From contig DELI01000007.1 in NCBI GenBank assembly GCA_002354335.1, positions 62,001 through 126,000 on the forward strand: a stretch of 64,000 nucleotides of DNA. The letters are read 5' to 3'. Made by a program: the position numbers and the translations under genes. This document shows positions 1 to 17,300 of the stretch, piece after piece (position 1 is the first letter of the stretch; the number at the start of each line of letters is the position of its first letter). The stretch is from Sphingobacterium sp. UBA2700 (GTDB lineage: Bacteria > Bacteroidota > Bacteroidia > Sphingobacteriales > Sphingobacteriaceae). Below the pieces are notes generated by a model. That model was not told the origin of the DNA. It did not search any database and saw only the letters and a list, made by a program, of their open reading frames with translations.

Positions 1-2141
1 TTAGACTGCTCGTAACTCGTATACCCCAATAGTGAGATTGCGCGACTTTGTTTCTCCGTTGTATCTTTGAGTGCGATTTCTTTTAATTTGCCGACGAAGC
101 CGTCTAGACTTTCATTTGATGAGCTATTGATGGCATAAAGTAGTCCTTTATTATTGGGTTTAAGTTCTTGCTTTCTGCCGTTTAAAGCTTCTGATAGCCC
201 TAGTAGGGCGGATATCTTCCATTCATCAACAGCATCCGGAGTAACTAGGCGATGGAAGAAGTCGGAGGCTTCAGCAATAGTTCCGCCATGCCCGAGCAGC
301 CTTCCTAAGTCCTGCATCACTGCGGCATAAGCTTTTGGTTCGGCCGATTTCATACTTGCAAAAGCGGTAATAAATTCTTGAGAACGACCCGACAGCCCGC
401 TTAATACAGCTGCACGAGTCCACTTATCGGAGCCGTCTTTTGCCGCAATTTTAGCTAAAGCTTGAACAGCTTCATTCGTGTTGATATTCCCTAAAGCGAT
501 TGCTGCATAATATCTTACACGTGCCGACGGATCTTCTGCCAGTTTGTTCAATGTAGATTTCGCCTGGTCATATTTTGTATGGCTAGCAAGGATTTGCACA
601 GCTTGTTCACGAATGGAAGGTTCATCGCTTGCTAAGGCCTGATTAAGGCTTTCCAAGCTAAGCATGCCTAGATTATGAGCTAACCAAAGCGCTCTGGATT
701 TCCCTTCATTGTTCGAACCCTTAGCAATCGTTTCTTTCAATAAGTCATTGATATCTCCTGGCTTAGACTCCAAAAGTAAGCGAAAGGCTGTCGCTCTTTT
801 CCACTCGTCGGCAGAACTCAAGGCATCGACCAAGTCTTTGTTAGTCGCTCCTGTCGCCACTTTTCCGGTTTTGTCTTCATCCCCATCGTCGAAGTCTTTG
901 CGTACGACCCTATAGATTCTTCCGTCGGTTTTGCCGGCCTCAAAATCCAGCTGCCCGCGCATCTCCTCTGGAACATAGGCTGGATGGTCAATCACCTTGC
1001 GATGCATGTCAACAATATACAAGGCACCTTCCGGACCATGCTGCGCATAGACCGGGCGGAACCATTCATCCGTTGATGCTAAGAACTCTTTGCCCTCATT
1101 CGCAATTGCGGAAGTGAAGCTTGCTCCATCTTCTTTCACAATCTGTCTCTGAACCAAGTTCTGAGCCGATTCACAGATAAAAATATTGCCTTTATGCTCT
1201 GGTTTTAATGCCGTTCCATTGTAAACGACTAAACCGCTAGCGGCAGTAAAAGTGCCGGTATGCGATTTCCCCATGAGGTCCGGGATGTACTCCGCAGTAG
1301 TTACTGCATTACTGATGGGATAAACTACGGCATTGGCTTCAACTGGCGATACATTCTGTACCATCTCATTAAAGGTTAAATGCGGATTGCGCGAGAGGTT
1401 CCAGGGCTCCATCACGATCTGCATGACCGGATGTCGATTTGATGTGCCGAAGCGATGTCCATAGGGATCGATAGTGAGGCCAAATTGACTTTTCCCGCCC
1501 GTGACCTGGAATTCATAGGTCTCGGGATTGAAACGGCCATCTGCAGCCGTGTAAACTACTGCCGGGCGATCAGGATGCTCTGGCGAAGTAATACTACCGC
1601 CGTTTAAACCTCCTGTAACATAGATCCAACCGTCTAAGCCCAAGGTCGGATGGCTCATGCGAATTTGCGAGGTCTTCGTGTCATTGAATCCCGTCAGTAC
1701 GGTTTTTTTAATGTCAGCAATCCCGTCGCCATCAGAATCTTTGTAATAGTAAATATGTGGTGCACAGGTTATAAAGACCCCTCCTTTCCATGGCAGGATG
1801 CCATTGGGATAAGTGAGTCCTGTCGCGAATTCGTTTCTTTTGTCATAAGTGCCATCGCCGTCGGTGTCTTCCAATAAAACGATTCTACCGAGCGTTGTTG
1901 GCTCACCTTCCTCTGCCGGATCGGGATATCCACGATCCTCGACAACATACATTCTTCGATTTTCATCAAAAGCGAAGGCTACAGGATCGATGACCATAGG
2001 CTCATAGGCAACTGGTTCAATTCGAAGTCCCTCCTCCAGCTGAAAGGCATCTAAGGCCTGTTGGATTCGTTCATTCTCATGTTTCTTTTTACAGCCGACG
2101 AGCAATACGAGTAAGGATGCGGCTAGAATTGGATATCTCAT
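1..2141 (-). CDS. PVC-type membrane-bound dehydrogenase-like lipoprotein with HEAT repeats (3' end outside window)
   Basis: The frame is open from an ATG at 2141 to the left edge (713 codons visible), so the C-terminus is missing. The N-terminus MRYPILAASLLVLLVGCKKK is a lipoprotein signal with lipobox LVGC. Residues from about 40 to 410 resemble the Pirellula/Verrucomicrobium-type 'putative membrane-bound dehydrogenase' beta-propeller (TIGR02604-like), with DTDGDGTYD and DSDGDGIAD calcium-type loops and the stretch GPEGALYIVDMHR. The rest is alanine/leucine-rich alpha-helical repeat resembling HEAT repeats. In this family a heme-binding CxxCH cytochrome domain often follows, but that part would lie outside the window. 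It is the last visible gene of the minus-strand SusC/SusD/ceramidase-like locus, 39 bp after the first ceramidase-like stop. The substrate is unknown; an envelope-anchored sugar-oxidising role is inferred from family only. Confidence 0.75.
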   Translation of the reverse strand, partial: MRYPILAASLLVLLVGCKKKHENERIQQALDAFQLEEGLRIEPVAYEPMVIDPVAFAFDENRRMYVVEDRGYPDPAEEGEPTTLGRIVLLEDTDGDGTYDKRNEFATGLTYPNGILPWKGGVFITCAPHIYYYKDSDGDGIADIKKTVLTGFNDTKTSQIRMSHPTLGLDGWIYVTGGLNGGSITSPEHPDRPAVVYTAADGRFNPETYEFQVTGGKSQFGLTIDPYGHRFGTSNRHPVMQIVMEPWNLSRNPHLTFNEMVQNVSPVEANAVVYPISNAVTTAEYIPDLMGKSHTGTFTAASGLVVYNGTALKPEHKGNIFICESAQNLVQRQIVKEDGASFTSAIANEGKEFLASTDEWFRPVYAQHGPEGALYIVDMHRKVIDHPAYVPEEMRGQLDFEAGKTDGRIYRVVRKDFDDGDEDKTGKVATGATNKDLVDALSSADEWKRATAFRLLLESKPGDINDLLKETIAKGSNNEGKSRALWLAHNLGMLSLESLNQALASDEPSIREQAVQILASHTKYDQAKSTLNKLAEDPSARVRYYAAIALGNINTNEAVQALAKIAAKDGSDKWTRAAVLSGLSGRSQEFITAFASMKSAEPKAYAAVMQDLGRLLGHGGTIAEASDFFHRLVTPDAVDEWKISALLGLSEALNGRKQELKPNNKGLLYAINSSSNESLDGFVGKLKEIALKDTTEKQSRAISLLGYTSYEQS

Positions 2142-2180
2142 TGGGTTGATAGTTGATTATAGACTTTTGTTGTAATGGAA

Positions 2181-3626
2181 TTATTTACCCGCTTTATGAT
2201 CATTTAACAGGCGGAGCAATACAGCAAGTATCTTGTCTGCTGCAGTTTCTTCTAAGTAGCTTGAACGCGCACGCCAAGTTTCATAGCCGCCTAATTTGTG
2301 ATGTTTTGCAGTCGGTAGATAACCATTGTAGCCGTTCGCCAGCTCGATGTTGAAGGTCGGTTTGAATGGACTTTTCGCTTTTAGTTCCAGCCCAATCTCT
2401 ACGAATACTTCCGCAGGAATGGCCGTGATGGCTAAATCACCAATTTTGAACACTTGAAGAATCAAGTCGACCTGATCAGGGTAATCTTTTAACAACAAAG
2501 TTTCACGTGCATAGATTTCTTCAAGAGACTGCATGCTGGGGCCGGCCGCTTTAGCGACGATGCCTTCCGCACGCTTAATATCCTGTGCATTTGGTTTTCT
2601 TACGCCCAATCGAATTTCTTCTTGCTTGGCCGCTAGTTTGATGGTTTTTTGTGGAGGGGCACTCTTAATAGCCGAGTAGGAGGCGCTAGCCACCTTATCC
2701 GCGACAGAGCGTATTTTCTCATACTGAGGTAATGCTTCTGTTTTCTTTCCAGGCCAATTGATGTTGTTGATATCGCCACTGGTTCCATTGCTCATGATGC
2801 CCACAAATGGAGGGTCATTTAATGTATTCTCGCTTAGCACAAGGTCTCCAATTCGATCGGCAAAGGCGCCGTAATAGTCTGCAGAGATCTCACCTGGTCC
2901 GGTGCCACCGACATAGTGCAACGAATAATTAGCAAGTACTGCAATAGGTTTACCATCTACCGTTTTTAAGAAAATGCTGGGCACCTCCGGATCGGTAGGG
3001 CCAGCAGGTTTATCCATATTTGGGTTTTCAACACCCGGATTCATCTTCACCTGATCCTGCCCGCCAAAGGGGTTCGGCATTGCAGTTCCCGGCTTCATAT
3101 ACCAGCGGCGGTTAAACACTTCCGTCGCTTCCTTGCCAACACCCCAAGAGATAACTGCAGGCGCACGATTCTCATAAGCACGAATAAGTGCGTCTGCAGT
3201 TCTTTCGACGATAAAGTCTAGGTAGTCTGGATCGGGATCACTTTGAAACACGCCGCAGGCAGTACCTGCAGAATGCGTATGTGTCGCCGACATCATCATA
3301 TTTTGTACCGGGATTCCGGTAAACTCGGAAGCGCGCTGTTTTGCTTTGTCCAGCGTTTCTCTGGATACCATACATAGATCCAAAACCACAAAACCCAACT
3401 TCGTCTGTCCATCATCCAAGACTAGTGCTCTGGCATGGATATCATCATGCACATGCCTCACCGTCACGTCCTGCATATTCCCATTGATAGAAGACCCTAT
3501 TTTTGGAGTAATGGTACTTTTTGCGGCGCCCGCCTGAAACACTTTGCTGGCGGAATTGCTCTGCGCCAGGGCGCTGCCTGCGAGAAAGAGCATGGATAAT
3601 AGAAAGGTACAGACTGAAGATTTCAT
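2181..3626 (-). CDS. Secreted neutral/alkaline ceramidase N-terminal-domain family protein (paralogue 1)
   Basis: This 481-residue protein has a signal peptide (residues 1-22, ending ALAQ) and a single domain like the N-terminal zinc-hydrolase domain of neutral ceramidase. The separate C-terminal Ig-like domain of true ceramidases is absent. Expected zinc-ligand positions are present: SATHTHSA (H116/H118), NYSLHY (H237), IPAEVF and NGYNGYLPT. The position of the amidase motif GDVSPN reads GDINNIN (about 284-290), so the nucleophilic Ser is not conserved. It is therefore probably not a ceramidase; another amide or ester bond may be cut, or the metal site may be used differently. It lies 35 bp after the next paralogue and 39 bp before the PVC-type lipoprotein, consistent with one transcript. 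Confidence 0.82.
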   Translation of the reverse strand: MKSSVCTFLLSMLFLAGSALAQSNSASKVFQAGAAKSTITPKIGSSINGNMQDVTVRHVHDDIHARALVLDDGQTKLGFVVLDLCMVSRETLDKAKQRASEFTGIPVQNMMMSATHTHSAGTACGVFQSDPDPDYLDFIVERTADALIRAYENRAPAVISWGVGKEATEVFNRRWYMKPGTAMPNPFGGQDQVKMNPGVENPNMDKPAGPTDPEVPSIFLKTVDGKPIAVLANYSLHYVGGTGPGEISADYYGAFADRIGDLVLSENTLNDPPFVGIMSNGTSGDINNINWPGKKTEALPQYEKIRSVADKVASASYSAIKSAPPQKTIKLAAKQEEIRLGVRKPNAQDIKRAEGIVAKAAGPSMQSLEEIYARETLLLKDYPDQVDLILQVFKIGDLAITAIPAEVFVEIGLELKAKSPFKPTFNIELANGYNGYLPTAKHHKLGGYETWRARSSYLEETAADKILAVLLRLLNDHKAGK

Positions 3627-3661
3627 AGCGTTTTGGGTTTTGATTAGTATGCTGTTCTTGT

Positions 3662-5122
3662 TTAATTCATCTGAGAAAATAGGTTGTTAATCGTGCTGAA
3701 AATTTTTCTAGAAGCATTTACCTCTACACGATTCGTTCCTAGCCAAGTCTCGTATCCACCGAGTTTATGCTGCTCTGGCGTTGGCAAGTAGCCATAAGAA
3801 CCATTGGCGAAAGAAATCGTAAATGTTTTATTCTTTGGATATTGCGTCTTGAGGGCTAAACCCGACTCGGCGAATGTTTCGAAAGGTATGGCTGCGATTT
3901 GCAAATCCCCGATGCGAAAAGTTTGTAATACTACGGATATTTCATTCGGCCATTCATTCTGTAATTGCGTAATACGCTCGGCATAGGTTCTTTCCAACGG
4001 ATGGTTGATAGGTTTGCTACCTTCTGGCATGGAAAAGATTTGCTTCGCTAGGGCCAGTTGCTTGTCCGTCGGTTTACGGACGATGAGCGTTTGTTCCGCT
4101 TGCTTTGCCTGTAGTTTAAGCCAAGGTTGGTACTTCACGTTTTGTAATGCGCTGTATACTTTTTGAGCAATGTCATTTGCTACAAATTTCATCTTTTCGT
4201 AGGGAGCATCTTTTGGCGGAGCGCCTTGCACATTGATATTATTGATGTCTCCTGAAGTGCCGTTAGTCATAATTCCTACAAAAGGGGCTTCCGGGTTATT
4301 CTGCGTGAGCAACTCTTGCATTCGATTGGCGAAGACGGCAAAGTAATCGGCAGAAATATCGTGCATAGGAACTCCTCCGATATAGTGTAAGGAGTAATTT
4401 GCCAGGAGCGCGATTGCTCGACCATCGATTGCCTGAACTGATAGAAAGGATACTTCCGGATCCGTTGGTCCCGCCGGTTTTACAATATCCGGATTGCCAA
4501 TGCCGGGGTTAAATCTTACCGGTTCTTTTTCTCCAAAAGGATTTACGACAAGATCTTTCATATGCCATCTTCTATTAAAGACATGTTCAGGAATGTTTAC
4601 CGAGCCCCAGCCGATCTTTGCGGGTTCCATTCGGTAAATAGCCATTTCGACCGCATCCGCAATTCGTAGTGCTAACATATCCTGATATTGATCAAGGCCT
4701 TCCTGCGGGTTCCAGCCGCGGCGCTTAGGGCCTTCCCCTTCGGCACTCGTTGCAGAATGGGTATGTGTACCGGCGATTAAAATATTGGATGTGGGAATAC
4801 CGGTACGTTCATTAATTTCTTTTTTTGCAACATCGCACACCTTGCGCGCAAGTCCGATATTATCACAGATGATAAAAGCAAGTTTGTTGTCGCCATCGTC
4901 AAGAACGATACTCCGCGCATGAAGTTCGTCGTGAATGTTCTTAGCCTCAGGAGGTATTCCAAAATTCCCAACAATTCCACCACCAAGGTAGGGGGTAATG
5001 ACCGTCGTGGCAGCACCTGCCATAAAGCTGCGCTGTTGCCCAAAACTTAGCATTGCTGATAAGATGAATAACGTAGAAAGTAAGAAACTTCTCACTGTCT
5101 GCTTATTGATTTTTCTTTCCAT
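3662..5122 (-). CDS. Secreted neutral/alkaline ceramidase N-terminal-domain family protein (paralogue 2)
   Basis: This 486-residue protein has an uncleaved-looking basic start and a hydrophobic segment at about residues 12-29 ending FGQQ, consistent with export. It is a close paralogue of the downstream gene: the same FNRRW segment, AGTHTHSA (H120/H122), NYSLHY (H246), IPFETF (E415) and NGSYGYLPT at the zinc-ligand positions, and GDINNIN (291-297) in place of GDVSPN. As in paralogue 1, the catalytic Ser is replaced by Asn. The gene begins after a 177-bp gap holding HutC-like palindromes (5229-5257), so it may have its own promoter within the locus. The C-terminal ceramidase domain is absent. 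The true substrate is unknown. Confidence 0.82.
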   Translation of the reverse strand: MERKINKQTVRSFLLSTLFILSAMLSFGQQRSFMAGAATTVITPYLGGGIVGNFGIPPEAKNIHDELHARSIVLDDGDNKLAFIICDNIGLARKVCDVAKKEINERTGIPTSNILIAGTHTHSATSAEGEGPKRRGWNPQEGLDQYQDMLALRIADAVEMAIYRMEPAKIGWGSVNIPEHVFNRRWHMKDLVVNPFGEKEPVRFNPGIGNPDIVKPAGPTDPEVSFLSVQAIDGRAIALLANYSLHYIGGVPMHDISADYFAVFANRMQELLTQNNPEAPFVGIMTNGTSGDINNINVQGAPPKDAPYEKMKFVANDIAQKVYSALQNVKYQPWLKLQAKQAEQTLIVRKPTDKQLALAKQIFSMPEGSKPINHPLERTYAERITQLQNEWPNEISVVLQTFRIGDLQIAAIPFETFAESGLALKTQYPKNKTFTISFANGSYGYLPTPEQHKLGGYETWLGTNRVEVNASRKIFSTINNLFSQMN

Positions 5123-5228
5123 AATTATAAGGTTAGTTTAAAGCCTTACAGATATGATGTGAAATTTGTTCAGGTATGATGTTTATTGCGGAGTCATCTT
5201 TAGGTTTAATCGTTCTCAACAGACTCGT

Positions 5229-5257
5229 CTTGTAAATATACAACTTGTGTAGACAAG
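5229..5257. promoter_or_regulatory. Two adjacent HutC/GntR-type operator candidates upstream of ceramidase-like gene
   Basis: CTTGTGTAGACAAG (5244-5257) has perfect CTTGT/ACAAG arms and a GTnTAnAC core (5247-5254). The 14-mer just left of it, TTGTAAATATACAA (5230-5243), is 12/14 palindromic. Similar sites surround the gntR/susC divergent promoter at 12077, 12191 and 12275. They sit 107-135 bp before the start at 5122. Binding by the local GntR protein is inferred. Confidence 0.6.
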
Positions 5258-5299
5258 AACAAATAGTTTACATCTTTTATCTTGTTAAAAATTTGTTTT

Positions 5300-6826
5300 T
5301 TATTTATGTTCAGGCGGTACATTGCCATATCCCCAGGCTTGTTTAAATGCTGGGGGAGGAGGAGGACTCGGTATTTTTCCCGGCGTCATCTGATTGGCGA
5401 GCTCAATACCTGTATTCGCGATTTGTCGACCAGCGGATACTTCCAAATTGGAATAGGAGGTCAATCGAGTCTCGTATCCTCCGCCATTTGGTCCCATAGC
5501 TTCCTCTGTCGGTACATAGCCCACACAACCATTTGCGAGTTCGACTATAAAAGTGAACGGAAAGTGACTCGCTTTTTTAATGTCCAAACCAAATTGAACG
5601 AAGTATTCTGCAGGATTCGAAACGAAGGCGATCGGCCCCACTTGAATGGCCTGCACTTCTACCTCCGCTTTCGGCCTTTTCTTAATCATCGCGTCTAAAA
5701 GCAGGATTTCCTTGGCGAATGTCCATTCCACACTTCCCGCTTTCTCGGGTCCCTGCTTTACCAGTTCCAACGATTTCTTGACTTTTTCTTTTGTCGGAAT
5801 TCGACGGCTTACCGTCCATACTTTCTGTCTGGAATCCAATGGTATGTCCGAACCTGCTCCTCTTTTTGCGAGTAACATGGTTTTGTAAGCCTCAGCACCG
5901 ACACGACCTCCAACGAGTTCCCACCATTCTTCCGCCGAGGGGTTTGCATGTTTTGCCATATTGTCTACCTGCGTAATGTCTCCACAGGCTCCCTGCATGA
6001 ATACGACAGGTAGGGCGGCATTACCCGTTACGCCACGTAGTGTTCTTTCCATGGCACCAATCCAGTTCGCAGATATCCCATCGGGGTTGGTGGTCGCATG
6101 ACAGGCGAAATTGACGACCATACCTAATAGATTGTCTTTTAGATCCCAAACACCAATAGTTCCTACATCCGGATCGATTGGACCTGCATAATCAATGATA
6201 TCGGGATTGCCTACACCCGGATGGGTGTAGGTCAAGCCATTTTTCATGCGCATGCGACGGTTGAAAGCAACTTTGTCTTCTTTCCCAACCCCCACGGCAA
6301 GTTTTGCATCTTGAAGACTGGCATTTGCGTCGACCACAGCTGCGACAATTTGATGTTGCAAGTACTGTATAAAACCCGGATCCGAAACGATAGACATATT
6401 AGTGGCAAGATCTTTTACTAAAGGATCTGCATCATCAAAATCTCCGGGTTCTGACATCGCGATGGGACCAGAGGAATGGGAATGTGAAGCTCCTATCATG
6501 ATGTCCTTGCCGGAAATACCGCAGGCAGATTCTATTTCTGCGCGAGTAATTTCCACGACACGGCGCGTTATGAAGATAAGATCGACTCCTACGAGTGCAA
6601 CTTTCTTCCTTCCATCATCAAAAACGACGGCGCGGACTTTACACTGGTCGTGAAATTTCTTATGATAGCTTTTGCCATAGTTTCCAGGTTGCTCCATACC
6701 AATGTCGGGAGTAATATCCTTTTCCGAAAAGCCAGCTCTAAAAGTCGGAGCAGTACCGTTAAAAGGACTAGCATGTAAATGAGCAATGAAAAAAACTGCA
6801 AATATGGATGTTATAAAGTATTTCAT
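5300..6826 (-). CDS. Secreted neutral/alkaline ceramidase N-terminal-domain family protein (paralogue 3, divergent)
   Basis: This 508-residue protein has a signal peptide (residues 1-19, AHLHAS). It is the most divergent of the three. It keeps GASHSHSSGP (H115/H117), VNFACHATTN (H243), NPAEYF and NGCVGYVPT at zinc-ligand positions. It carries MQGACGDITQVD (about 278-288), closer to the true ceramidase QG.AGDVSPN, but with Thr instead of the nucleophilic Ser. The C-terminus ends in a proline-rich tail (IPSPPPPPAFK). It starts 22 bp after the SusD stop, so it is the first enzyme of the SusC-SusD transcript; the other two paralogues follow after a 177-bp gap. As with its neighbours, ceramidase activity should not be assumed. 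Confidence 0.82.
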   Translation of the reverse strand: MKYFITSIFAVFFIAHLHASPFNGTAPTFRAGFSEKDITPDIGMEQPGNYGKSYHKKFHDQCKVRAVVFDDGRKKVALVGVDLIFITRRVVEITRAEIESACGISGKDIMIGASHSHSSGPIAMSEPGDFDDADPLVKDLATNMSIVSDPGFIQYLQHQIVAAVVDANASLQDAKLAVGVGKEDKVAFNRRMRMKNGLTYTHPGVGNPDIIDYAGPIDPDVGTIGVWDLKDNLLGMVVNFACHATTNPDGISANWIGAMERTLRGVTGNAALPVVFMQGACGDITQVDNMAKHANPSAEEWWELVGGRVGAEAYKTMLLAKRGAGSDIPLDSRQKVWTVSRRIPTKEKVKKSLELVKQGPEKAGSVEWTFAKEILLLDAMIKKRPKAEVEVQAIQVGPIAFVSNPAEYFVQFGLDIKKASHFPFTFIVELANGCVGYVPTEEAMGPNGGGYETRLTSYSNLEVSAGRQIANTGIELANQMTPGKIPSPPPPPAFKQAWGYGNVPPEHK

Positions 6827-6847: not shown

Positions 6848-8482
6848 TTATTGCCAACCTGGATTCTGTGTTAAGCTCGGATTGAGCGTAATTTCTTGTG
6901 TTGGGATTGGATAGAGATAAAGTTTGTTATCCCATTTCCTCGCTGTGAATCCCGGGTAAACGACACGTAAATTACCATCTGCAGGATTTCTAGCACCAAG
7001 AATAGTCTTTGGGTTTTCCAATAGCTTCCCTGCTTTCCAACGCACCAGGTCGTCCCATCGGTCTCCCTCTGCAGAAGTTTCTATTCTGCGTTCTCGACGT
7101 ATTTCGTTTAAAAGCGGGGAGATTGGCACCTCCCATTTCGGCCAATTAGGATCTGTAAATCCTACAGCGACCGTCAAGTGTGGCATCCCTACGCGATCGC
7201 GTAAAAGATTGATCGTTCGATCTAAGACGGCCTGTGTGCATTCGCCTAATTCCGCTTTTGCCTCTGCATAATCCAAAAGCACTTTACCATAACGATAGAT
7301 GAAATCGTCAATAATAGAAGTACTCGGTAAGCGATCCTTTTCGAAAGGACTGTATCCTTTGATAATGAAGTAGCTTGTCGGACAGTTAGAGTTCAGGAAC
7401 TCGGGCATTTCTTTGTAATTCACCGTTCCATTGTCGAAAATACGATAGGGTCGATCTTCGTGATAGATCGATTGTCGCATTCTTGGATCTCGATTTACAA
7501 ATTCATCTGCGAAGTTAGCATCGCCCTTATATAGCGGGCTTAACGCAATCGGTAAACCATCCGCACACAAATAAGACTCAACAAAATCCTTGCTATAGCC
7601 TGTTTGCGGTTCCCCGAGTTGTCGTACGTTGTTGTGCATCCTTTTGTCGGTAATGAATCGCTGTACCAAAATGCCTTCGGGGTTGCCTTTAAGCTCATAT
7701 TGCACAAACAAATCAAAGAAATCTTGCTCTGCTTTTCCAGTTTTATAAACAGCGAATAGGTTGGAATTAATAATTTGTTCAGCCGAAGTCGCGGCAAGTC
7801 TCAACAGTTCGTCATGTCCAGTCCCCACTTGATGATATTTGCGAAAAGTACCTTCATAAAGACTAACCTCTGTTTTAAGTGCTAGAGCTGCATACTTCGT
7901 CAGTCGGTCGGCGGCGGAGCTTTCAGGAAGATTGGCAATGGCGAAATCCAGGTCTGCTAGAATATTTTTCGTCACGGTTTCTCTACTGTCTCTTGCTGCG
8001 GTTAGTTCGGGTGACTCAGGCGTTAAGCTCGTATTCAACCAAGGCACTTCTCCGAATTTTTTAAGCTTCTCAAAGTAGTGAAAGGATTTAAAAAAGCGTA
8101 TTTCTCCCTCCGCTCTTTTCAGCGCAGGGTCGCTGATCGTCATGGTAGCAATGCGATCAAGCGCATAATTACAGCGACGTATTTGTAACCAATCTCCTTT
8201 TCCCCAACCGCCATCGGTTGCCGGTACATTGTACTCATTCCAGGTGTAAATATTTCTACTGCTTGGTATTTGGTTGTCACTTGCGTTATCTACGCTGAAC
8301 CAAGCCAATCTGGCGTCAAAAAGTGTAGCATAGAACTGGTTAGCATACATCTCCACATCCGATGCTGTTTTCCAAAATGTTGCGTCGCTGATTTCGTCTA
8401 AGGGATATTTTTCAAGGTAATCGTCGTTGCACGAAGTCGCTAAGAATATAGCCAACAAACCTATTTTGTATATCTTGTTCAT
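6848..8482 (-). CDS. SusD-like nutrient-binding outer-membrane lipoprotein
   Basis: SusD/RagB family protein. I place the start at the ATG at 8482, because MNKIYKIGLLAIFLATSC is then a clean lipoprotein signal; an upstream ATG at 8533 would overlap the SusC gene and add 17 unlikely residues. The mature part begins NDDYLEKYPLDEISDATFW, a typical SusD start. The C-terminus has IRRERRIETSAEGDRWDDLVRWK and ends YLYPIPTQEITLNPSLTQNPGWQ, the usual SusD ending. It follows susC by 28 bp. It caps the SusC pore on the cell surface and captures the substrate, presumably the one processed by the three downstream ceramidase-like proteins. Confidence 0.92.
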   Translation of the reverse strand: MNKIYKIGLLAIFLATSCNDDYLEKYPLDEISDATFWKTASDVEMYANQFYATLFDARLAWFSVDNASDNQIPSSRNIYTWNEYNVPATDGGWGKGDWLQIRRCNYALDRIATMTISDPALKRAEGEIRFFKSFHYFEKLKKFGEVPWLNTSLTPESPELTAARDSRETVTKNILADLDFAIANLPESSAADRLTKYAALALKTEVSLYEGTFRKYHQVGTGHDELLRLAATSAEQIINSNLFAVYKTGKAEQDFFDLFVQYELKGNPEGILVQRFITDKRMHNNVRQLGEPQTGYSKDFVESYLCADGLPIALSPLYKGDANFADEFVNRDPRMRQSIYHEDRPYRIFDNGTVNYKEMPEFLNSNCPTSYFIIKGYSPFEKDRLPSTSIIDDFIYRYGKVLLDYAEAKAELGECTQAVLDRTINLLRDRVGMPHLTVAVGFTDPNWPKWEVPISPLLNEIRRERRIETSAEGDRWDDLVRWKAGKLLENPKTILGARNPADGNLRVVYPGFTARKWDNKLYLYPIPTQEITLNPSLTQNPGWQ

Positions 8483-8510
8483 TATAGTTTTTTTAGGTAA
8501 TGAATGTTGA

Positions 8511-11500
8511 TTAAAAACTGAAGTTTGCTCCAAACGAGAACGAGCGGAACATAGGATAAGCGCTAGGTCCGGCGAGTTCAGGGTCAGAAATCTTAATCAT
8601 TTTGGTTAATGTCCATAAATTGCTTCCCGTGAAGAATACGCGAATTCTATCCGAACTAATCTTCTGTGTCAACTCTTGTGGAAGTGTATATCCCAAGGTC
8701 AATTGCTTCAGGCGTAGGTAGGCAGCGTTTTGCAAATAGCGCGTTTGTACGGTTGTAATATCGGCTGCCCCAGCAATTATGGGTCTAGGAAAGAAAGCGT
8801 CGGGGTTTTCTGGAGACCAATAATCCATAGCAACTTTCGGGATACCAACCCACTCATTCGAATACTGAGTCAGATAATATAAGTTGGAGATTACCAGGTC
8901 ACGTTTTCCAACGCCTTGGAAAAAAATATCCATATCGAATCCTTTCCAAGCTAGATTCGTTCTCAAACCGAAACTATAACGAGGCGTATTGTTCCCGATG
9001 ATGCTCATATCGCCAGGGTTGCTTAGTGTTTGTGCGCCCCTTGTGATCTTGCCATCACCGTTGATATCCACCATCCATAAATCGCCGGCTTGTCTTTTTC
9101 TGCCGTTGATATTACTCTGGTCTAGTGCAAGAGCTTCTGCGTCAGTTTGGAAGAGTCCTCCGGTTGTTAATCCCCAGATATTTCCCATGTCAGCACCTTC
9201 ATAATAATCAGAAATTAATCCGCTAGGGTTACTGAATCTGGTAATCTTGGCAAGATAGTCGGATAGAATTCCTGTAAATCCATATCTGAAATCGCCTACC
9301 TGATCGTTCCAGTTGAGGGTCAAATCAAATCCTTTCGTTCTCAGGTCTGCAGCGTTCGCCTGCGGTTCTGTGACGGCTAATACTGCAGGAAGCGTTTGCG
9401 ACTTTGTCAACATGTTTTTCGTATCGCGGGTATAGAAATCGAAAGAGCCGTTCAGTCGGTTATCTAAGAAACCGAAGTCTACGCCGAAGTTTTTCTGGGT
9501 CACCGTTTCCCAAGTCAAGGTCGAACTCACTAAGCCCGGTGCATACACCGACATCGGACGGTCACCATTGATTAGGTAGTTTACTTCGGCTGCGGTCATA
9601 GTCGCGATATAAGGGTAGTACAGGTCGATATTTTGATTTCCTAAGTTACCGTAGGAAGCGCGGAATTTCAGTTGATTTATGGTTTTCTTAATCGGTTCAA
9701 AAAATGGCTCATTATCCACACGCCATCCGACTGAAACCGAAGGGAAGAATGCAAACCTGTCGCGTTGAGCAAATTTGGAGGTGCCATCGTAGCGGCCATT
9801 GAATTCGACCAAATAACGGTCAGCATAGCTATAATTTATACGAGAAAATGCGCCCCGGATAGCATATTCGTTGATCCCATCGTAGGCAAATCGGTCCCCA
9901 GAAGCTAAATTGATATAAGGAACCTCGTTAATGATCAGATTTCTACGTTCGGCACTTACGGAATTATATTGTGCATGCTCTTGGTTAAATCCTAGCATCG
10001 CCTTGAAATAGTGTTTCTCGGCAAAAGTTTTGGTATAATCTGCGTATGCATTGAACACATAATAGCGATCGTCATAATTCGTACGGCTTACTCGATTTGG
10101 ATTACTTCCGCCGTAATAACCCATTACCTCACCAGCGACATTATAGAATGGCTGTTTTGCAAGATAGGACATCTCTTTAGTAGCTTTATTGTTGAACGAG
10201 TAGTCTACATTGATGCTCACCTCTTTTACAGGTGTTAGCTTGACCAAACCGGTCATCCACATATCGTTTACATGACGGGTTTGATAACCGCCTTCGCTTA
10301 ACATTTGCGCCGGATTGAAGATAGAGCCCTCATGCCCCCAATTGCCGTTTGGATCCCTTACAGGCTGTGTGGAATAGACGTTGGTTTGATAAATGGTGCC
10401 GTCTTCCGGAAAGGAGTTTCTGAATTGCGGATCGTTGGGTGGAAAATGTTTATTCCCGTTGTTGATACTTACTTTCGTCCCAACGGTTATCCATTCTTTG
10501 ATATGATAGTTTAAGTTGGTCATAAAGTTATAGCGCTTGTAGTACTCATCAAACAAATCCTTGTTGGCAAGACCGTCCTGCTTTATGAAAGAGAACGAAG
10601 AGTAATAGTCGAACTTCTCTGAACCACCCGTGATGCTTGCGGTATGCTGTTGCATTGGATAGCTTTTATTCATCAGTACATCTTCCCAGTTGGTATTCGC
10701 TACTCCTCTCCACTCATCTTTCGAGCTTGGATGCACAAAAGAATTGGGTTTTGACGGATCATTATAATGGGCCATCATGGCTTCCATCGTCAAATCATCA
10801 AAATAGTTTCTCCCATTGACCCGCATTGACGCCTCATTCATGTAAGCGATGCGATCTTTGGTGTCGATAAAGTCGATCTTGCTTATTGGGCTATTGGAAG
10901 AGAATAAGGTAGAAAAGCTGATTACTGGTTTATCTTTTTTACCGGATTTAGTGGTGATTAGGATAACCCCATAGGCAGCGCGAGCTCCGTAGATTGCTGC
11001 CGAGGCTGCATCTTTTAAAATCGTCACGCTCTCGATATCCGAAGGACTGATCAGGTTCGGATCCATCGGCACGCCGTTAACTAGAATTAATGGACCTCCG
11101 CCATTGATGGATGTATTACCACGTACATTAAAGGTGGAACCCTTTCCTGGTGCACCGCTCCCTTGCGTAACGTTTAGGTTAGGGGCTGTTCCCTGTAATC
11201 CCTGCCCCAAGGTAGTAATCGGGCGGCTTTCCAGTACCTCCGAAGTAACCGTTGAAACGGCACCAGTAAGATTTTCCTTCTTCTGCGTACCATATCCGAT
11301 CACCACCACATCGCCAATGGAAGTCACATCCGATTGTAGCGTCACATCCGTAACACCACTACCTCCGATAGCAATTTCCTGTGTGATATAGCCTACGGTG
11401 CTGAAAACAAGCGTGTTTGCTTCATTATTGGCTTGTAGACTGTACTGACCGTCTGCATTGGTCGATGTCGCTGCGGTTGAACCCTTCACTTTCACACTCA

Positions 11501-11741
11501 CCCCTTCGAGTGGAACACCGTCGGCATTTCGCACCGTCCCTGATAATGTTCGTTGTTGATTGATGTTGCTGTGCGCAACATGTGTTCTTTTGAGCGACTT
11601 GCCCTTGATCAAGGACAAGTTAGAATCGCGGTCGCTCTCGGAATAGGCCGATAGGCTCCCGGTACACATAATCAGCCCTGCGCTGATAAAGAATACTCGT
11701 AGGATTCGCGATAGTTGCTCTTGGCTGCTAATCTGTTCCAT
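8511..11741 (-). CDS. SusC/RagA-family TonB-linked outer-membrane transporter
   Basis: About 1076 residues. An N-terminal hydrophobic signal (VFFISAGLIMCTGSLSA) is followed by a carboxypeptidase-D-like regulatory domain (SGTVRNADGVPLEGVSVKVKG), the SusC-type motif DVVVIGYGTQKKENLTGAVS, a plug domain (VRGNTSINGGGPLILVNGVPM; SVTILKDAASAAIYGARAAYG) and a beta-barrel ending FRSFSFGANFSF. The ATG at 11741 is preferred; an in-frame ATG at 11777 would only lengthen the n-region. It imports a substrate across the outer membrane using TonB energy. It is transcribed divergently from gntR, with HutC-type palindromes between them, so control by that regulator is likely. The substrate is unknown. Confidence 0.92.
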   Translation of the reverse strand: MEQISSQEQLSRILRVFFISAGLIMCTGSLSAYSESDRDSNLSLIKGKSLKRTHVAHSNINQQRTLSGTVRNADGVPLEGVSVKVKGSTAATSTNADGQYSLQANNEANTLVFSTVGYITQEIAIGGSGVTDVTLQSDVTSIGDVVVIGYGTQKKENLTGAVSTVTSEVLESRPITTLGQGLQGTAPNLNVTQGSGAPGKGSTFNVRGNTSINGGGPLILVNGVPMDPNLISPSDIESVTILKDAASAAIYGARAAYGVILITTKSGKKDKPVISFSTLFSSNSPISKIDFIDTKDRIAYMNEASMRVNGRNYFDDLTMEAMMAHYNDPSKPNSFVHPSSKDEWRGVANTNWEDVLMNKSYPMQQHTASITGGSEKFDYYSSFSFIKQDGLANKDLFDEYYKRYNFMTNLNYHIKEWITVGTKVSINNGNKHFPPNDPQFRNSFPEDGTIYQTNVYSTQPVRDPNGNWGHEGSIFNPAQMLSEGGYQTRHVNDMWMTGLVKLTPVKEVSINVDYSFNNKATKEMSYLAKQPFYNVAGEVMGYYGGSNPNRVSRTNYDDRYYVFNAYADYTKTFAEKHYFKAMLGFNQEHAQYNSVSAERRNLIINEVPYINLASGDRFAYDGINEYAIRGAFSRINYSYADRYLVEFNGRYDGTSKFAQRDRFAFFPSVSVGWRVDNEPFFEPIKKTINQLKFRASYGNLGNQNIDLYYPYIATMTAAEVNYLINGDRPMSVYAPGLVSSTLTWETVTQKNFGVDFGFLDNRLNGSFDFYTRDTKNMLTKSQTLPAVLAVTEPQANAADLRTKGFDLTLNWNDQVGDFRYGFTGILSDYLAKITRFSNPSGLISDYYEGADMGNIWGLTTGGLFQTDAEALALDQSNINGRKRQAGDLWMVDINGDGKITRGAQTLSNPGDMSIIGNNTPRYSFGLRTNLAWKGFDMDIFFQGVGKRDLVISNLYYLTQYSNEWVGIPKVAMDYWSPENPDAFFPRPIIAGAADITTVQTRYLQNAAYLRLKQLTLGYTLPQELTQKISSDRIRVFFTGSNLWTLTKMIKISDPELAGPSAYPMFRSFSFGANFSF

Positions 11742-12060
11742 ATACATTGATTGAATTAAACTTGACTCTGACCCCATTGCCCGAATCGCCAGGCATCGGG
11801 GTATAGCGAATATTTGTACACAAGAATTCCAGGGCCCTATTTTTCGCTATTATTTTAGGGCAGGTACTAGGTAATCGTTTAAGTCGTTGTTCAATGAATC
11901 CAAATGTATCGAACGCACGGTTTAGGGATCTTTCAAGCTAAACATTTGGATGCATCATCTAAGTTTCAGCATGTATGGAGAAGGATTTTTACAATAGTCA
12001 TTGCTATTGTCTTCTCATAATTTTCGGTATTAAGTTTATCCGTTGATATAATTAGTTGAA

Positions 12061-12090
12061 CAAATATATAAAAATACTTGTATATACAAG
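12061..12090 (-). promoter_or_regulatory. Candidate susC promoter with overlapping GntR operator
   Basis: CAAATATA at 12061-12068 reads TATATTTG on the minus strand, matching the Bacteroidota -7 box TAnnTTTG. Eighteen bases upstream is a TTG inside the perfect 14-bp palindrome CTTGTATATACAAG (12077-12090), whose core GTATATAC fits the HutC-subfamily operator GTnTAnAC. A regulator bound there would cover the -33 element, which predicts repression relieved by a ligand. Confidence 0.6.
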
Positions 12091-12274: not shown

Positions 12275-12288
12275 CCTGTATATACAAG
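12275..12288. promoter_or_regulatory. HutC-type operator candidate upstream of gntR
   Basis: CCTGTATATACAAG differs from the perfect palindrome at 12077 by one base and has core GTATATAC (12278-12285). It lies about 60 bp before the gntR ATG, a position that suits autoregulation. Confidence 0.55.
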
Positions 12289-12346
12289 AAAAGGCTTGAA
12301 AAATACTCATTGTTGAGTATATTTGTCTTTACTAAATATAGAGCTT

Positions 12347-13063
12347 ATGCAAAGATCGTCGGGAACCCCTCTCTACAAGAAAGTATTCGAAGAGTTAAAA
12401 AGCCAGATCGATTCTGGGCTATACAAAATGGGTGATTTATTGCCATCGGAGAACGAGCTTTGTAAACTTTATTTTACCACGCGCCCTACCGTACGCCAAG
12501 CGCTCAACGACCTTAGTAACCTAGGTTATATTGTCAGACAGCATGGGAAGGGCAGCATCGTCTCTGAACCGAAGAATGGTCTAGGGATTTTATCGCTTAA
12601 AGGGTCTACAGCCGGCGTTGGAAAGCATAACCTAAAAACAGCCATCATTACGAAACCTATTAAGCAGACCTGGCCTGATTCCTTTGAATTTGAACTAACC
12701 CCAGAGGAGAAAGAAGCGGGTTCCATTTACCTTTCGCGCCTGCGTTATGTTGATGGCTTGCCAACCCTATTCGAAGAGACTTATATCTCAAACATAGATT
12801 TACCCCGTTTTACGCTCCATAATTTGGAAAAAAACTCGCTCTTTGAGACATTAAAGAATTATCATGATGTGGAGGTAAAGGAGGGCGAACAAAAAATATG
12901 GGCGATTGAGGCATCGAAAGATTTGGCGGAAATGTTCAATATCAAAACGAAAAAACCCGTTTTGCATATGAAACGTCGATTAAAAACCAATAAGAAAAAC
13001 CTGTTCATCTATTCTTTTCTTTATTGTAATACACAGGATTTCTTTATTCAGGATTATTTTTAG
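12347..13063 (+). CDS. GntR-family (HutC/UTRA) transcriptional regulator
   Basis: The ATG at 12347 (MQRSSGTPLYKKVFEELKS) is preferred over an in-frame TTG 24 bp earlier. The N-terminal winged helix (residues about 7-70) shows the GntR signature: SGLYKMGDLLPSENELCKLY, then TTRPTVRQALNDLSNLGYIV and RQHGKGSIV. Residues about 85-238 form a UTRA ligand-binding domain (SRLRYVDGLPTLFEETYI). Members of this subfamily sense sugars, amino sugars or related metabolites and bind GTnTAnAC palindromes. Such palindromes lie directly upstream and again before the ceramidase-like gene at 5122. This is the likely local regulator of the minus-strand locus. Confidence 0.9.
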   Translation: MQRSSGTPLYKKVFEELKSQIDSGLYKMGDLLPSENELCKLYFTTRPTVRQALNDLSNLGYIVRQHGKGSIVSEPKNGLGILSLKGSTAGVGKHNLKTAIITKPIKQTWPDSFEFELTPEEKEAGSIYLSRLRYVDGLPTLFEETYISNIDLPRFTLHNLEKNSLFETLKNYHDVEVKEGEQKIWAIEASKDLAEMFNIKTKKPVLHMKRRLKTNKKNLFIYSFLYCNTQDFFIQDYF

Positions 13064-13790: not shown

Positions 13791-16700
13791 ATGGAAAGAA
13801 GATTACGTTTCATTTTGATGCTGGTTATCCCGTTATTAACTATGGCGTTCGCACAGGCGCAGCAGCGGACATACTCCGGTGTAGTTAGGGATACAGAAGG
13901 AAAGCCAATCGTTGGCGCCAGTATCGTTGTGGTGGGGACCGCTGTAGGGACCTCATCTTCGGAAACTGGACAGTACAGTATCCAGGCGAATCAGGGAAGT
14001 AGGATCAGCTACTCACTTGTTGGCAAGGAGTCCGCGACAATAACCACGACCAGTAATACAACAATCAATGTGACCCTGAGTGATGCAAATCAGGAAATTG
14101 AAGACGTCGTTGTAATTGCTTATGGTACGGCAAAGAAGAAGGATTTGACGGGAGCAATCAGCACTGTTGATTCAAAGGTGCTTGGTGCGCAGGCGAACTC
14201 AACGCTGACCAAAGCCTTGGAAGGCGCTGTTCCGGGTATTCAAGTCTCCTCTGTCGATGGGCAGCCGGGGGTCGATATGGGCGTTCGTGTTCGTGGTATT
14301 GGATCCTCCAGTCAGAACAACTCGAATGCGCTTATCGTTATCGATGGTGTTCCTGTGACGGCGGGTTTCAATCCCCTATCGACGATGAATCCTAAGGATA
14401 TCGAATCCGTGACGATTCTGAAGGATGCTGCATCAACGGCGCTATGGGGCTCCAGAGGAGCAAATGGTGTCATCATGGTTACTTCAAAAAAAGGCGCTCG
14501 AGGCGGAACAAAGATAGACTTCGACACTAAATTAGGAGCAAACATGATTGCTAACAACCAACCAAAACTTATTCGCGGTGTCGAAGACAACTATGAAATG
14601 ATGTGGGAAAGCATCTATAACTCGGTTCGGTACGGTAGCACGGAGAAATACAAAACCAACTTCAGCAATCCGAACATGTCGCATGAAGAAGCAGCCTTGT
14701 TTGCAAGTCAGCATTTATTCAACTATACCGGAAGCAAGACTAATTTCGCAGGCCCTAATGGCTTGTCGAACTGGATGTATTACCGTGTTCCCGGAGCAAG
14801 GTATGTTTCTACCGGTACAGGAGACACCCGATCGGCGACCATGCTGGACAACTACTTGATTGATCCGGCAACAGGAAAGATCAATAAAGATGCTGTAAAG
14901 CTGTATGATGTGGATGATTGGAGAGATATCGCATACAGAGATCGCTTTCGCCAAGAGTATACCGTATCGGCGAGCGGAGGAACAGAGAAGACGGATTATT
15001 TTATCTCTACCGGTTTCTTATCCGATCCTTCCTATATCGCTAACTCTAACTTCAAGCGTTATAACGTGCGTTCGAATGTAAACTCTCAGATTACCGAATG
15101 GTTGAAAGCAGGTATAAATGCGACCTACTCGAACCGTTCTACTCGTTTACAGAATGGTCGTTTCAGTTCGCGTAATCCGGGCGCTGCCGTTCAGAACGTG
15201 TTCCGTTGGACAGATGGGTATCGTCCATTAGCGTCCATTTATGAGCGCGATGAAAATGGGAATATGGTCTATGACGCAAGCGGCAACCCACAGGTAGTTC
15301 GCTTGGTAGGCCAGCAGTATTCGCCACTAGGGGTTGTAACCCCAAAGGCGGGAGGATCTACATCAATGGGCTACGACTTAGAATATCAGATGGAGAACTC
15401 CCAATCTGAATATGTATCCAACGATATTTCTACCATCGGTTATTTACAGGCAAAGTTCTGGAATGACTTCACATTCAATGTGCAGATGGCGGTAAACCAA
15501 TCTTACCATATGCGTTATGTTTCCTTGCCGAAAGCGTGGGGAGAGTCTTCTAACGCTGAGCAGGGGATGATCGGTCGCTACCATACACAATACTTAGATC
15601 TCAACTCACAACAAACATTGAATTGGGGACATGATTATGGCAAGCACCATGTGGATGCCATGATTGGCCATGAGTTCACTTGGATGAAAACAGAGAACAT
15701 GAACTACAAAGCGTCGCTATCGCTTATCGACAATTTCACAGGTTCAGGAAACTACTTGTTCTTAAACAACGGAGGAACTTTCTCTGGTGTTGGCTTCGGC
15801 ACAAATAAGGAGGCCATGGAAGGTTACTTTGCTCGTGCAAATTATATATACGATAATAAATATATTGCTACAGGTTCCGTTCGTCGTGATGGCTCATCGA
15901 AGTTCCGCTATGACGAAGATCGTTGGGGCATATTCTGGAGCTTAGGCGGTGCATGGCGTATTTCCTCAGAGGCCTTTATGGAGCCGACGAAAGGATGGTT
16001 AAACGACTTAAAGCTTCGCGCAAGCTACGGTGTCATCGGTAACCAAAATGGTATTGGACGCTACGCAGGGTACCAAACCTGGAATTATGGTGCTTTGGGT
16101 TACACGACGCCGGGTTCTTATGCCCCGAGCGGATATACCCTGACCATGGGCGCGGCAGTAAACAGTTCCTTGACCTGGGAGAAAAAGAATACCATTGATG
16201 CAGGTCTCGACCTTAGCCTATTTAACCGTGTCAATGCAACCATAGACTGGTATAAAACCAATACAACGGATTTATTATTGGATGTTCCTGTTTCCTATGC
16301 CATGGCCGGACAATCCACCTTACTACAAAATGAAGGCGAGTTGGAGTCCAAAGGTTTGGAAGTCGATGTCAATGTTGATCTAATCAAACGCGATGACTTC
16401 AATTGGTCGGTCAACGTCAATACCGGACATTATAAAGTAAAGGTAGTAAAGATGCCAGAGACGATGATCAACCAGCAGGATGCACTGCACGATCACAAGT
16501 GGTGGTATGCTACGGCAGATGCCTGGGGAGCTGTAGGTAACACAGGTTCGGGTTCAGGAGCTGCATACAGACGTTGGATCGGTGGAGATTACTATAATGT
16601 AATCTTCGCGAAATATATGGGCGTGGATAAGGGTACAGGTCTACCGCTTTACGGAGCGCTAGTAACCGAAGGAAACCAAGGTAAATTCCCGAATGCGAAA

Positions 16701-17300
16701 GTTGGAGATGTTGTCTCGACGACAGATTATTCCGAAGCTTATATGTTTGACTATGGAGATGCTACGCCGGATTTAATAGGTGGTTTCGGAACTTCCGTAC
16801 GCTGGAAGAACTTTGATTTGGCAGCAAACTTCGCTTACCAATTAGGCGGCCTTTTCTTTAGTAATTTATACGGGAACTTTATCTACAACACTTCCGACAT
16901 CGGAAACCAAATGTTATCAGAAGATCTGCTGAACAATACATTTAATGAGTCCAATCAGGATGCCAAATTCCCGATGCTTATGGTGAACTCCCCGAATGCA
17001 AGTACAATTTATAGCAATGGTACGCGGGTTTCATCGGGAAATACCTATACGGATCTTTCGGTGTTCGATGCTTCTTACCTAAACATCAAGAATATCACGG
17101 TGGGCTATACGCTACCCGAGAAATGGGCAAGCAAAGCGAAGATGGCAAGCGTACGTGCCTATGTATCGTTAGACAATATGTGGGTATTTGCTAAAAGTGG
17201 TATAGATCCGCGCAATTCCATCGTCGGAGGATTAGATGTAGGCGCATATACTTATCCGATGATACGTTCAAGTTCATTTGGTATAAAAGTAACCTTTTAA
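13791..17300 (+). CDS. SusC/RagA-family TonB-linked outer-membrane transporter (orphan pair)
   Basis: 1169 residues. Signal peptide MERRLRFILMLVIPLLTMAFAQAQ, carboxypeptidase-like domain (YSGVVRDTEGKPIVGASIVV), linker DVVVIAYGTAKKKDLTGAIS, plug (VRVRGIGSSSQNN; TILKDAASTALWGSRGANG), and a barrel ending MIRSSSFGIKVTF. The stop overlaps the susD start by one base, so the pair is translationally coupled. No degradative enzyme, sigma factor or dedicated regulator adjoins it; the nearest plus-strand genes are gntR and a small secreted protein. The substrate cannot be inferred. Confidence 0.92.
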   Translation: MERRLRFILMLVIPLLTMAFAQAQQRTYSGVVRDTEGKPIVGASIVVVGTAVGTSSSETGQYSIQANQGSRISYSLVGKESATITTTSNTTINVTLSDANQEIEDVVVIAYGTAKKKDLTGAISTVDSKVLGAQANSTLTKALEGAVPGIQVSSVDGQPGVDMGVRVRGIGSSSQNNSNALIVIDGVPVTAGFNPLSTMNPKDIESVTILKDAASTALWGSRGANGVIMVTSKKGARGGTKIDFDTKLGANMIANNQPKLIRGVEDNYEMMWESIYNSVRYGSTEKYKTNFSNPNMSHEEAALFASQHLFNYTGSKTNFAGPNGLSNWMYYRVPGARYVSTGTGDTRSATMLDNYLIDPATGKINKDAVKLYDVDDWRDIAYRDRFRQEYTVSASGGTEKTDYFISTGFLSDPSYIANSNFKRYNVRSNVNSQITEWLKAGINATYSNRSTRLQNGRFSSRNPGAAVQNVFRWTDGYRPLASIYERDENGNMVYDASGNPQVVRLVGQQYSPLGVVTPKAGGSTSMGYDLEYQMENSQSEYVSNDISTIGYLQAKFWNDFTFNVQMAVNQSYHMRYVSLPKAWGESSNAEQGMIGRYHTQYLDLNSQQTLNWGHDYGKHHVDAMIGHEFTWMKTENMNYKASLSLIDNFTGSGNYLFLNNGGTFSGVGFGTNKEAMEGYFARANYIYDNKYIATGSVRRDGSSKFRYDEDRWGIFWSLGGAWRISSEAFMEPTKGWLNDLKLRASYGVIGNQNGIGRYAGYQTWNYGALGYTTPGSYAPSGYTLTMGAAVNSSLTWEKKNTIDAGLDLSLFNRVNATIDWYKTNTTDLLLDVPVSYAMAGQSTLLQNEGELESKGLEVDVNVDLIKRDDFNWSVNVNTGHYKVKVVKMPETMINQQDALHDHKWWYATADAWGAVGNTGSGSGAAYRRWIGGDYYNVIFAKYMGVDKGTGLPLYGALVTEGNQGKFPNAKVGDVVSTTDYSEAYMFDYGDATPDLIGGFGTSVRWKNFDLAANFAYQLGGLFFSNLYGNFIYNTSDIGNQMLSEDLLNNTFNESNQDAKFPMLMVNSPNASTIYSNGTRVSSGNTYTDLSVFDASYLNIKNITVGYTLPEKWASKAKMASVRAYVSLDNMWVFAKSGIDPRNSIVGGLDVGAYTYPMIRSSSFGIKVTF

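Follow-up and report, generated by a model that had tools for sequence, protein, structure and literature searches.

A SusC/SusD Locus with Three Ceramidase-Fold Proteins in Sphingobacterium: Possible Front End of a GntR-Controlled Glycoside Regulon

What is the role of three adjacent proteins of the neutral ceramidase fold, all altered at the serine site, in an apparent nutrient-uptake locus? The question arises from Sphingobacterium sp. UBA2700, in a stretch of 64,000 nucleotides (contig DELI01000007.1, positions 62,001 to 126,000), which we call the window. There, a minus-strand operon encodes, in order from the promoter side, SusC, SusD, the ceramidase-fold proteins Cer3, Cer2 and Cer1, and a PVC-type (Planctomycetes, Verrucomicrobia, Chlamydiae) lipoprotein; the window start falls inside the operon. 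From family membership and gene order, we take the locus, with a probability of roughly 0.45, to form the front end, in outer membrane and periplasm, of a catabolic regulon under GntR control; its substrate would be a glycoside, probably bearing an N-acylated amino sugar. No published description of this locus was found in our literature searches, whose scope excluded most subscription journals. The features are as follows.

3-2141, minus strand: PVC-type lipoprotein (DUF7133/TIGR02604 plus HEAT; Pfam, NCBIfam), cut by the window start, first 713 residues
2181-3626, minus strand: Cer1, ceramidase-family protein, 481 residues; Asn at the Ser site; signal peptide by eye
3662-5122, minus strand: Cer2, ceramidase-fold protein, 486 residues; Asn294 at the Ser site; signal peptide by eye
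5244-5257, no strand: operator-like palindrome CTTGTGTAGACAAG, within the 177-base gap between Cer3 and Cer2
5300-6826, minus strand: Cer3, ceramidase-fold protein, 508 residues; Thr285 at the Ser site; signal peptide by eye
6848-8533, minus strand: SusD-type lipoprotein (Pfam); true start probably the ATG near 8482 (by eye)
8511-11777, minus strand: SusC/RagA TonB-linked outer-membrane protein (Pfam, NCBIfam)
12077-12090, no strand: operator-like palindrome CTTGTATATACAAG, between SusC and the gntR gene
12275-12288, no strand: operator-like site with one mismatch, directly upstream of gntR
12323-13063, plus strand: HutC-type GntR/UTRA regulator; nearest solved relatives YvoA/NagR and DasR

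The SusC/SusD pair was recognized by TIGR04056 and SusD domains in adjacent genes, whose open reading frames overlap as listed; the remaining intergenic gaps are 21, 177, 35 and 39 bases. The gntR gene is divergent from SusC at a distance of 545 bases.

The Cer proteins share the catalytic-domain fold of neutral ceramidase, and their structural match to the Pseudomonas aeruginosa enzyme (2zws) stops at its residue 487. A profile of 19 relatives retrieved both solved neutral ceramidases (2zws, E 7.7e-23; human 4wgk, E 2.1e-19), the other two listed sequences reaching only E 0.47 and 0.78. By alignment, the zinc ligands of neutral ceramidase (His-x-His, His, Glu and Tyr) are present in all three; the translations read THTH, PAE and GYLPT in Cer1, THTH, PFE and GYLPT in Cer2, and SHSH, PAE and GYVPT in Cer3. 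The Ser-site motif is GDINNIN in Cer1 and Cer2 and GDITQVD in Cer3. These zinc-ligand and Ser-site motifs are all as named in the original prediction, made from the sequence of the window, which further claimed that the C-terminal ceramidase domain is absent and that the three form a non-ceramidase branch. The absence is borne out by the end of the match to 2zws and by Pfam, which gave no match to that domain in Cer1-3 (481-508 residues). Separation from neutral ceramidase is likewise supported, as Cer1 scores 25.4 bits with the NCBIfam equivalog NF041649 (cut-off 1200) and Cer2 and Cer3 are unlisted. With PF04734 (Ceramidase_alk; gathering score 32.1), Cer1 (40.9 bits) and Cer2 (49.2 bits) pass, and Cer3, at 24.9 bits, falls under the gathering score of the Pfam release used.

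The alleged loss of the catalytic Ser is correct as a statement about sequence (Asn, Asn and Thr) but not as a special feature of this locus. From 193 Cer-profile matches in 167 loci, 188 had at least 300 residues, and 158 were left after near-copies and the window's own were dropped; with the three window proteins these made 161 aligned rows, in which the Ser-site residue is Asn in 126, Thr in 15, Ala in 4, Ser in 3 and another residue in 13. Asn was found in 64 of 65 rows from a scan with a Cer2 pattern (and so biased to Cer2), in 18 of 21 Pfam-found rows of eight genomes (mostly PVC), and in 7 of 24 Pfam-found Bacteroidota rows, many of which are distant, with an unlike motif and an unsure alignment. 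Other loci of the window's family (n=48) have 35 Asn, 12 Thr and 1 Ser. On these alignments Asn is the usual state of the branch, less clearly so in the distant Bacteroidota members. In the NRS motif both solved enzymes follow the Arg with Ser, where 145 rows have Arg. The rows hardly vary in the zinc ligands and the Arg/Tyr set. On one view, Ser acts as the nucleophile in neutral ceramidases; a zinc-bound water has been proposed too. A replacement Ser nucleophile elsewhere in Cer2 was considered and rejected: only Cer2 columns 43, 119, 121, 123 and 257 are Ser, Thr or Cys in at least 85% of the rows, and columns 123 and 257, as the profile alignment reads, are already Ser in 2zws (257 lies opposite Asn in 4wgk). 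The alignment therefore points to no new nucleophile.

The original prediction placed the three proteins in a SusC/SusD locus with a PVC-type partner, and the placement stands; the window part of the lipoprotein scores 275.2 bits with TIGR02604 (cut-off 122.2). The operon also runs past the window start, where its genes are known from the nearest genome (G001) and other genomes rather than from the window's own; G001 has 97% of sampled 31-letter words in common with the window and the operon genes in the same order. There the full-length lipoprotein has 977 residues, with DUF7133, HEAT repeats and a cytochrome c domain containing CVVCH, this CxxCH motif lying beyond the window. Behind it follow two proteins of PF06439, the 3-keto-disaccharide hydrolase family (DUF1080), a Gfo/Idh dehydrogenase, a NagB-like protein, a PIG-L protein, an aldolase of the DeoC/LacD family (nearest solved relatives MJ0400 and LsrF), a second Gfo/Idh dehydrogenase (the two are here GfoA and GfoB) and a PfkB kinase. 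Signal peptides were seen by eye on the Cer, PVC and PF06439 proteins, and none on the remaining catabolic proteins. The five-family set originally taken as the unit thus gives way, on neighbourhood comparison, to a more extended set that also takes in sugar-catabolic genes and a regulator gene, probably one co-regulated sugar unit.

DUF7133 proteins of these loci carry a cytochrome c domain (CxxCH), a plastocyanin-like domain (loci L107 and L110), or neither with an adjacent gene for a high-potential iron-sulfur protein (L006), and such redox-type domains or neighbours suggest a part in electron transfer. The proteins at L107 8377-11469 and L110 8848-11970 have an N-terminal GDSL lipase, and a C-terminal plastocyanin/azurin-like copper domain replaces cytochrome c. 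L006 8745-14982 (G001:C1:1292500-1311500) is a second Cer locus of G001, with SusC/SusD-like genes, ThuA and two more Cer proteins (GDINP and GDQNP); its DUF7133 protein is without CxxCH, and the iron-sulfur protein gene lies directly behind.

The regulator is of the HutC type, with GntR and UTRA domains; YvoA/NagR is the nearest solved relative (E 6.1e-16) and DasR a weaker one (E 1.5e-9). It is 68% identical to a divergently encoded regulator beside Cer3 in Parapedobacter and 84% to the copy in G360. The palindrome CTTGTNTANACAAG has three window sites with at most one mismatch (5244, 12077 and 12275). As the pattern was chosen after it had been sighted in two window gaps, the expectation of 0.12 is after the fact and no test, and the same holds for p 6e-5 for two of the three exact G001 sites falling within 19 kb. 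Two observations are independent of that choice: the palindrome (one mismatch) precedes the PF06439 genes in all four same-genus loci, and in Parapedobacter palindromes precede Cer3, the Cer2 unit and a unit led by a Gfo-like gene. The palindrome also precedes SusC in all four same-genus loci. G001 has three exact sites genome-wide, two of them at this locus; the third (C1:3925941) lies between FAD/Rieske-like and HemW-like genes (by eye), with no link found. In 58 other sampled genomes of the genus there are 17 sites in 12 genomes. In the window, G001 and G524, gntR adjoins the SusC operator. G442 carries a sialic-acid-type operon (L174 1181-16611; BNR, GH20, GlcNAc 2-epimerase, major facilitator superfamily and DHDPS-family genes) with the SusC operator on one side and a second gntR/operator copy on the other; as this operon is read in the direction of the SusC operator and does not start from it, it was not used as substrate evidence. 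Immediately beyond gntR in the window there is a second SusC/SusD-like pair (13791-18955, plus strand).

Cer3 matches at E 1e-60 or better are rare, occurring in one of 295 class-sample genomes (G001) and in 15 of 399 family-sample genomes, in 3 of 25 genera. Module conservation was read in 14 of the 15 family loci, the fifteenth being a fragment. Cer2 directly adjoins Cer3 in 13 of the 14 (the order is swapped in genus g98, and in G385 they are two genes apart), and Cer1 with the PVC-type protein (>1000 bits) is present in 12, the two misses being contig ends. The catabolic flank is readable in eight genomes, and genes for the NagB-like and PIG-L-like proteins, aldolase, GfoA and PfkB were found in seven (phmmer to G001 proteins); GfoA and PfkB are visible at the edge of the stretch in G405 and G390. 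In a quick tree of 141 rows with SH-aLRT support only and many long branches flagged by the program (35 Poribacteria rows reduced to 5, rows under 380 residues excluded, 10 database proteins added), Cer1 and Cer2 each join a different subclade within the Planctomycetota and Verrucomicrobiota sequences, and Cer3 groups tightly with sequences from Verrucomicrobia on a deep, separate branch whose stem is long. Recent tandem duplication was rejected on this placement; on the tree, Cer1-3 are old paralogues, assembled or retained together. The PVC resemblance claimed at the outset is apparent both in gene content and in tree position.

Further Cer genes were seen elsewhere. Loci of genus g98 carry extra Cer paralogues, up to five per locus (L098, L100, L101, L103), together with sulfatase (L098, L103), DMFA2_C-domain proteins (L098) and lactate-utilisation-family genes (L107). 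Sulfatase genes recur beside Cer genes in PVC-wide neighbourhoods, an observation without a control; no PVC-wide neighbourhood counts were drawn, as the greedy open reading frame caller favours antisense frames in GC-rich genomes and missed known Cer genes. In G524, L106 3-9819 has a further Cer pair; one Cer protein at this locus has Ser at the site (GDISPH), and genes nearby encode a class III aminotransferase, a PfkB kinase, a GH3 enzyme and a protein weakly matching L-fucose isomerase. In Parapedobacter indicus, a 796-residue protein (L007 7335-9722) with a twin-arginine-like start (by eye) lies between Cer3 and Cer2 and has no Pfam match at E 0.001.

How might such a set of proteins work? 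Going by families and gene order, SusC/SusD would import an oligosaccharide, the PVC-type lipoprotein would oxidize a sugar in the periplasm and pass electrons to its own cytochrome c domain, and the PF06439 proteins would cleave the resulting keto-glycoside. The DUF7133 and PF06439 genes fit such oxidation-assisted cleavage, a route that PMC9007349 reports for 3-ketotrehalose (BT2157) and proposes for lactose. The exported Cer1, Cer2 and Cer3 would hydrolyze an acyl (amide or ester) bond on the substrate or its products by a zinc-bound water, in an active site that retains the Arg/His/Tyr set and has Asn or Thr for the ceramidase Ser. In the cytoplasm, the Gfo/Idh dehydrogenases, PIG-L deacetylase, NagB-like deaminating isomerase, PfkB kinase and class I aldolase would complete the breakdown. 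The Cer reaction is the least certain step; hydrolysis by zinc-bound water is tentatively favoured over direct action on keto-sugars. The pointers to an amino sugar are weak: the NagB-like and PIG-L proteins, a Gfo/Idh protein related to UDP-GlcNAc 3-dehydrogenase and, least of all, the regulator.

Several points weigh against this assignment. The amino-sugar labels come from remote resemblance, the NagB-like protein scoring 31.5 bits against a cut-off of 236.9 and having no solved relative at E 0.01, and the PIG-L protein 122.9 bits against 182.5 for BshB1. GfoB fits UDP-GlcNAc 3-dehydrogenase (103.7 bits, cut-off 450) and inositol 2-dehydrogenase (107 bits, cut-off 355) equally. No glycoside hydrolase was identified among the annotated module genes, and the NagB/PIG-L/aldolase block was not found in the stretch read of G372. 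None of the g98 loci examined has the palindrome, and other DNA separates SusC from gntR in two of four same-genus genomes (about 3 kb in G360, about 22 kb in G442). Should deacylation be done by PIG-L in the cytoplasm, the Cer proteins would not have to be deacylases, and we know of no measured activity for the clades of Cer1-3. Finally, NCBIfam does not group the regulator with the amino-sugar repressors: its highest equivalog scores are 97.4 bits with the trehalose-operon repressor, 96.4 with LSA1692 and 91.4 with HutC, none above cut-off, and its relatives in Parapedobacter and G524 give a like pattern. The probability of the amino-sugar regulon is therefore somewhat lowered, and that of a regulon for a cyclitol or inosamine, not an aminohexose glycoside, somewhat raised.

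That cyclitol regulon, still an unlikely one in our estimate, draws on the inositol score of GfoB, on scyllo-inositol dehydrogenase among the solved relatives of GfoA, and on the kinase, which reaches 60.2 bits with IolC (cut-off 300) but scores equally with ribokinase models. A kinase with a LacD-type aldolase also resembles the IolC-DUF2090 step described in PMC9007349. However, IolB, IolD and IolE are not among the module genes identified, and SusC/SusD with the PF06439 genes indicate an oligosaccharide. It is also rather doubtful that Cer1-3 are metal-dependent enzymes acting on 3-keto-sugars themselves, by elimination, hydrolysis or hydration, the change from Ser to Asn marking a switch of chemistry. 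Cer genes do co-occur with Gfo/Idh, PVC-type and PF06439 genes, and the second G001 locus combines two Cer proteins with ThuA and a PVC protein; but the step is already filled by the PF06439 proteins, and we know of no 3-keto-glycoside eliminase with a ceramidase fold. The eliminases described in PMC10628242 bind metal by His/Asp/Glu beside a catalytic His, but they are TIM barrels with Mn. Retention of three paralogues together might suggest non-catalytic binding or scaffold proteins in a periplasmic complex, which is improbable given the near-invariant zinc ligands and Arg/Tyr set, unusual for dead enzymes. It is likewise improbable that Cer1-3 are genuine ceramidases, or ones little altered, that act on sphingolipids, which Bacteroidota make, or on other lipid amides, since, although the fold and zinc-ligand set are shared, both the Ser site and the NRS motif are altered, the C-terminal domain is missing, the equivalog score is far under its cut-off and the neighbours are sugar-catabolic.

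The acylated glycoside remains our preferred substrate. We would go further only speculatively, and with little confidence: the Asn-type branch of the ceramidase fold may be a widespread class of carbohydrate enzymes, and the three members here, in series or as one complex, may join a periplasmic sugar dehydrogenase coupled to a cytochrome in breaking glycosides by 3-keto chemistry, possibly acting on keto-sugars directly. If so, the 'ceramidases' of many PVC bacteria and Bacteroidota would be a hidden glycan-degradation family. At E 0.001 at least 8000 candidates match Cer2, and 3958 of 7997 scored candidates match Cer3; among the 120 matches listed for each, some are named 'neutral ceramidase' or ceramidase-domain protein, names that would be misleading if the sugar reading is true. 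With one regulator, one palindrome and three candidate promoters, this compact set is suited to finding the substrate and reaction of both the Asn-type ceramidase fold and the PVC-type cytochrome proteins.

Compared with known systems, the Cer proteins share with neutral ceramidase (Pseudomonas aeruginosa 2zws/2zxc; human 4wgk) the catalytic fold, the H-x-H, His, Glu and Tyr zinc site, the Arg and a second Tyr, and differ in the Ser-site residue (Asn or Thr), in reading NRR for NRS, in lacking the C-terminal domain and in their sugar-type gene neighbours. As in the NagR/YvoA and DasR regulons, a GntR/UTRA regulator goes with a short palindromic site, but here the candidate operator is CTTGTNTANACAAG and the regulator is without an NCBIfam equivalog above cut-off. 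The SusC/SusD pair with co-oriented exported proteins is like that of polysaccharide utilisation loci, from which the locus differs in its ceramidase-fold and PF06439 proteins and in the lack of annotated glycoside hydrolases. Lac161_ORF7, a PVC-type protein from a soil verrucomicrobial cosmid, was reported as a beta-galactosidase (Cheng et al. 2017, PMC5342196); the purified protein is reported to cleave lactose with a Km of 1.8 mM, assayed by glucose release, and is described there with Piru_Ver_Nterm, HEAT_2 and cytochrome c CxxCH domains like those of the full-length lipoprotein, the word 'ceramidase' being absent from the main text of that paper. Related 3-keto-glycoside pathways are Bacteroides thetaiotaomicron BT2156-2160 and Caulobacter LacABC with its DUF1080 protein, which have Gfo/Idh-type genes, PF06439 proteins and cleavage of oxidized glycosides (PMC9007349). 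PF06439 proteins beside dehydrogenases, as in BT2156-2160, were seen in G001, outside the window, but the Gfo/Idh proteins here score at most 37 bits against the BT_2158/BT_2159 equivalog cut-offs of 650 and 750. The position of LacABC is taken by the PVC-type protein, and to these 3-keto pathways the locus adds the Cer trio, the NagB-like and PIG-L proteins and the aldolase.

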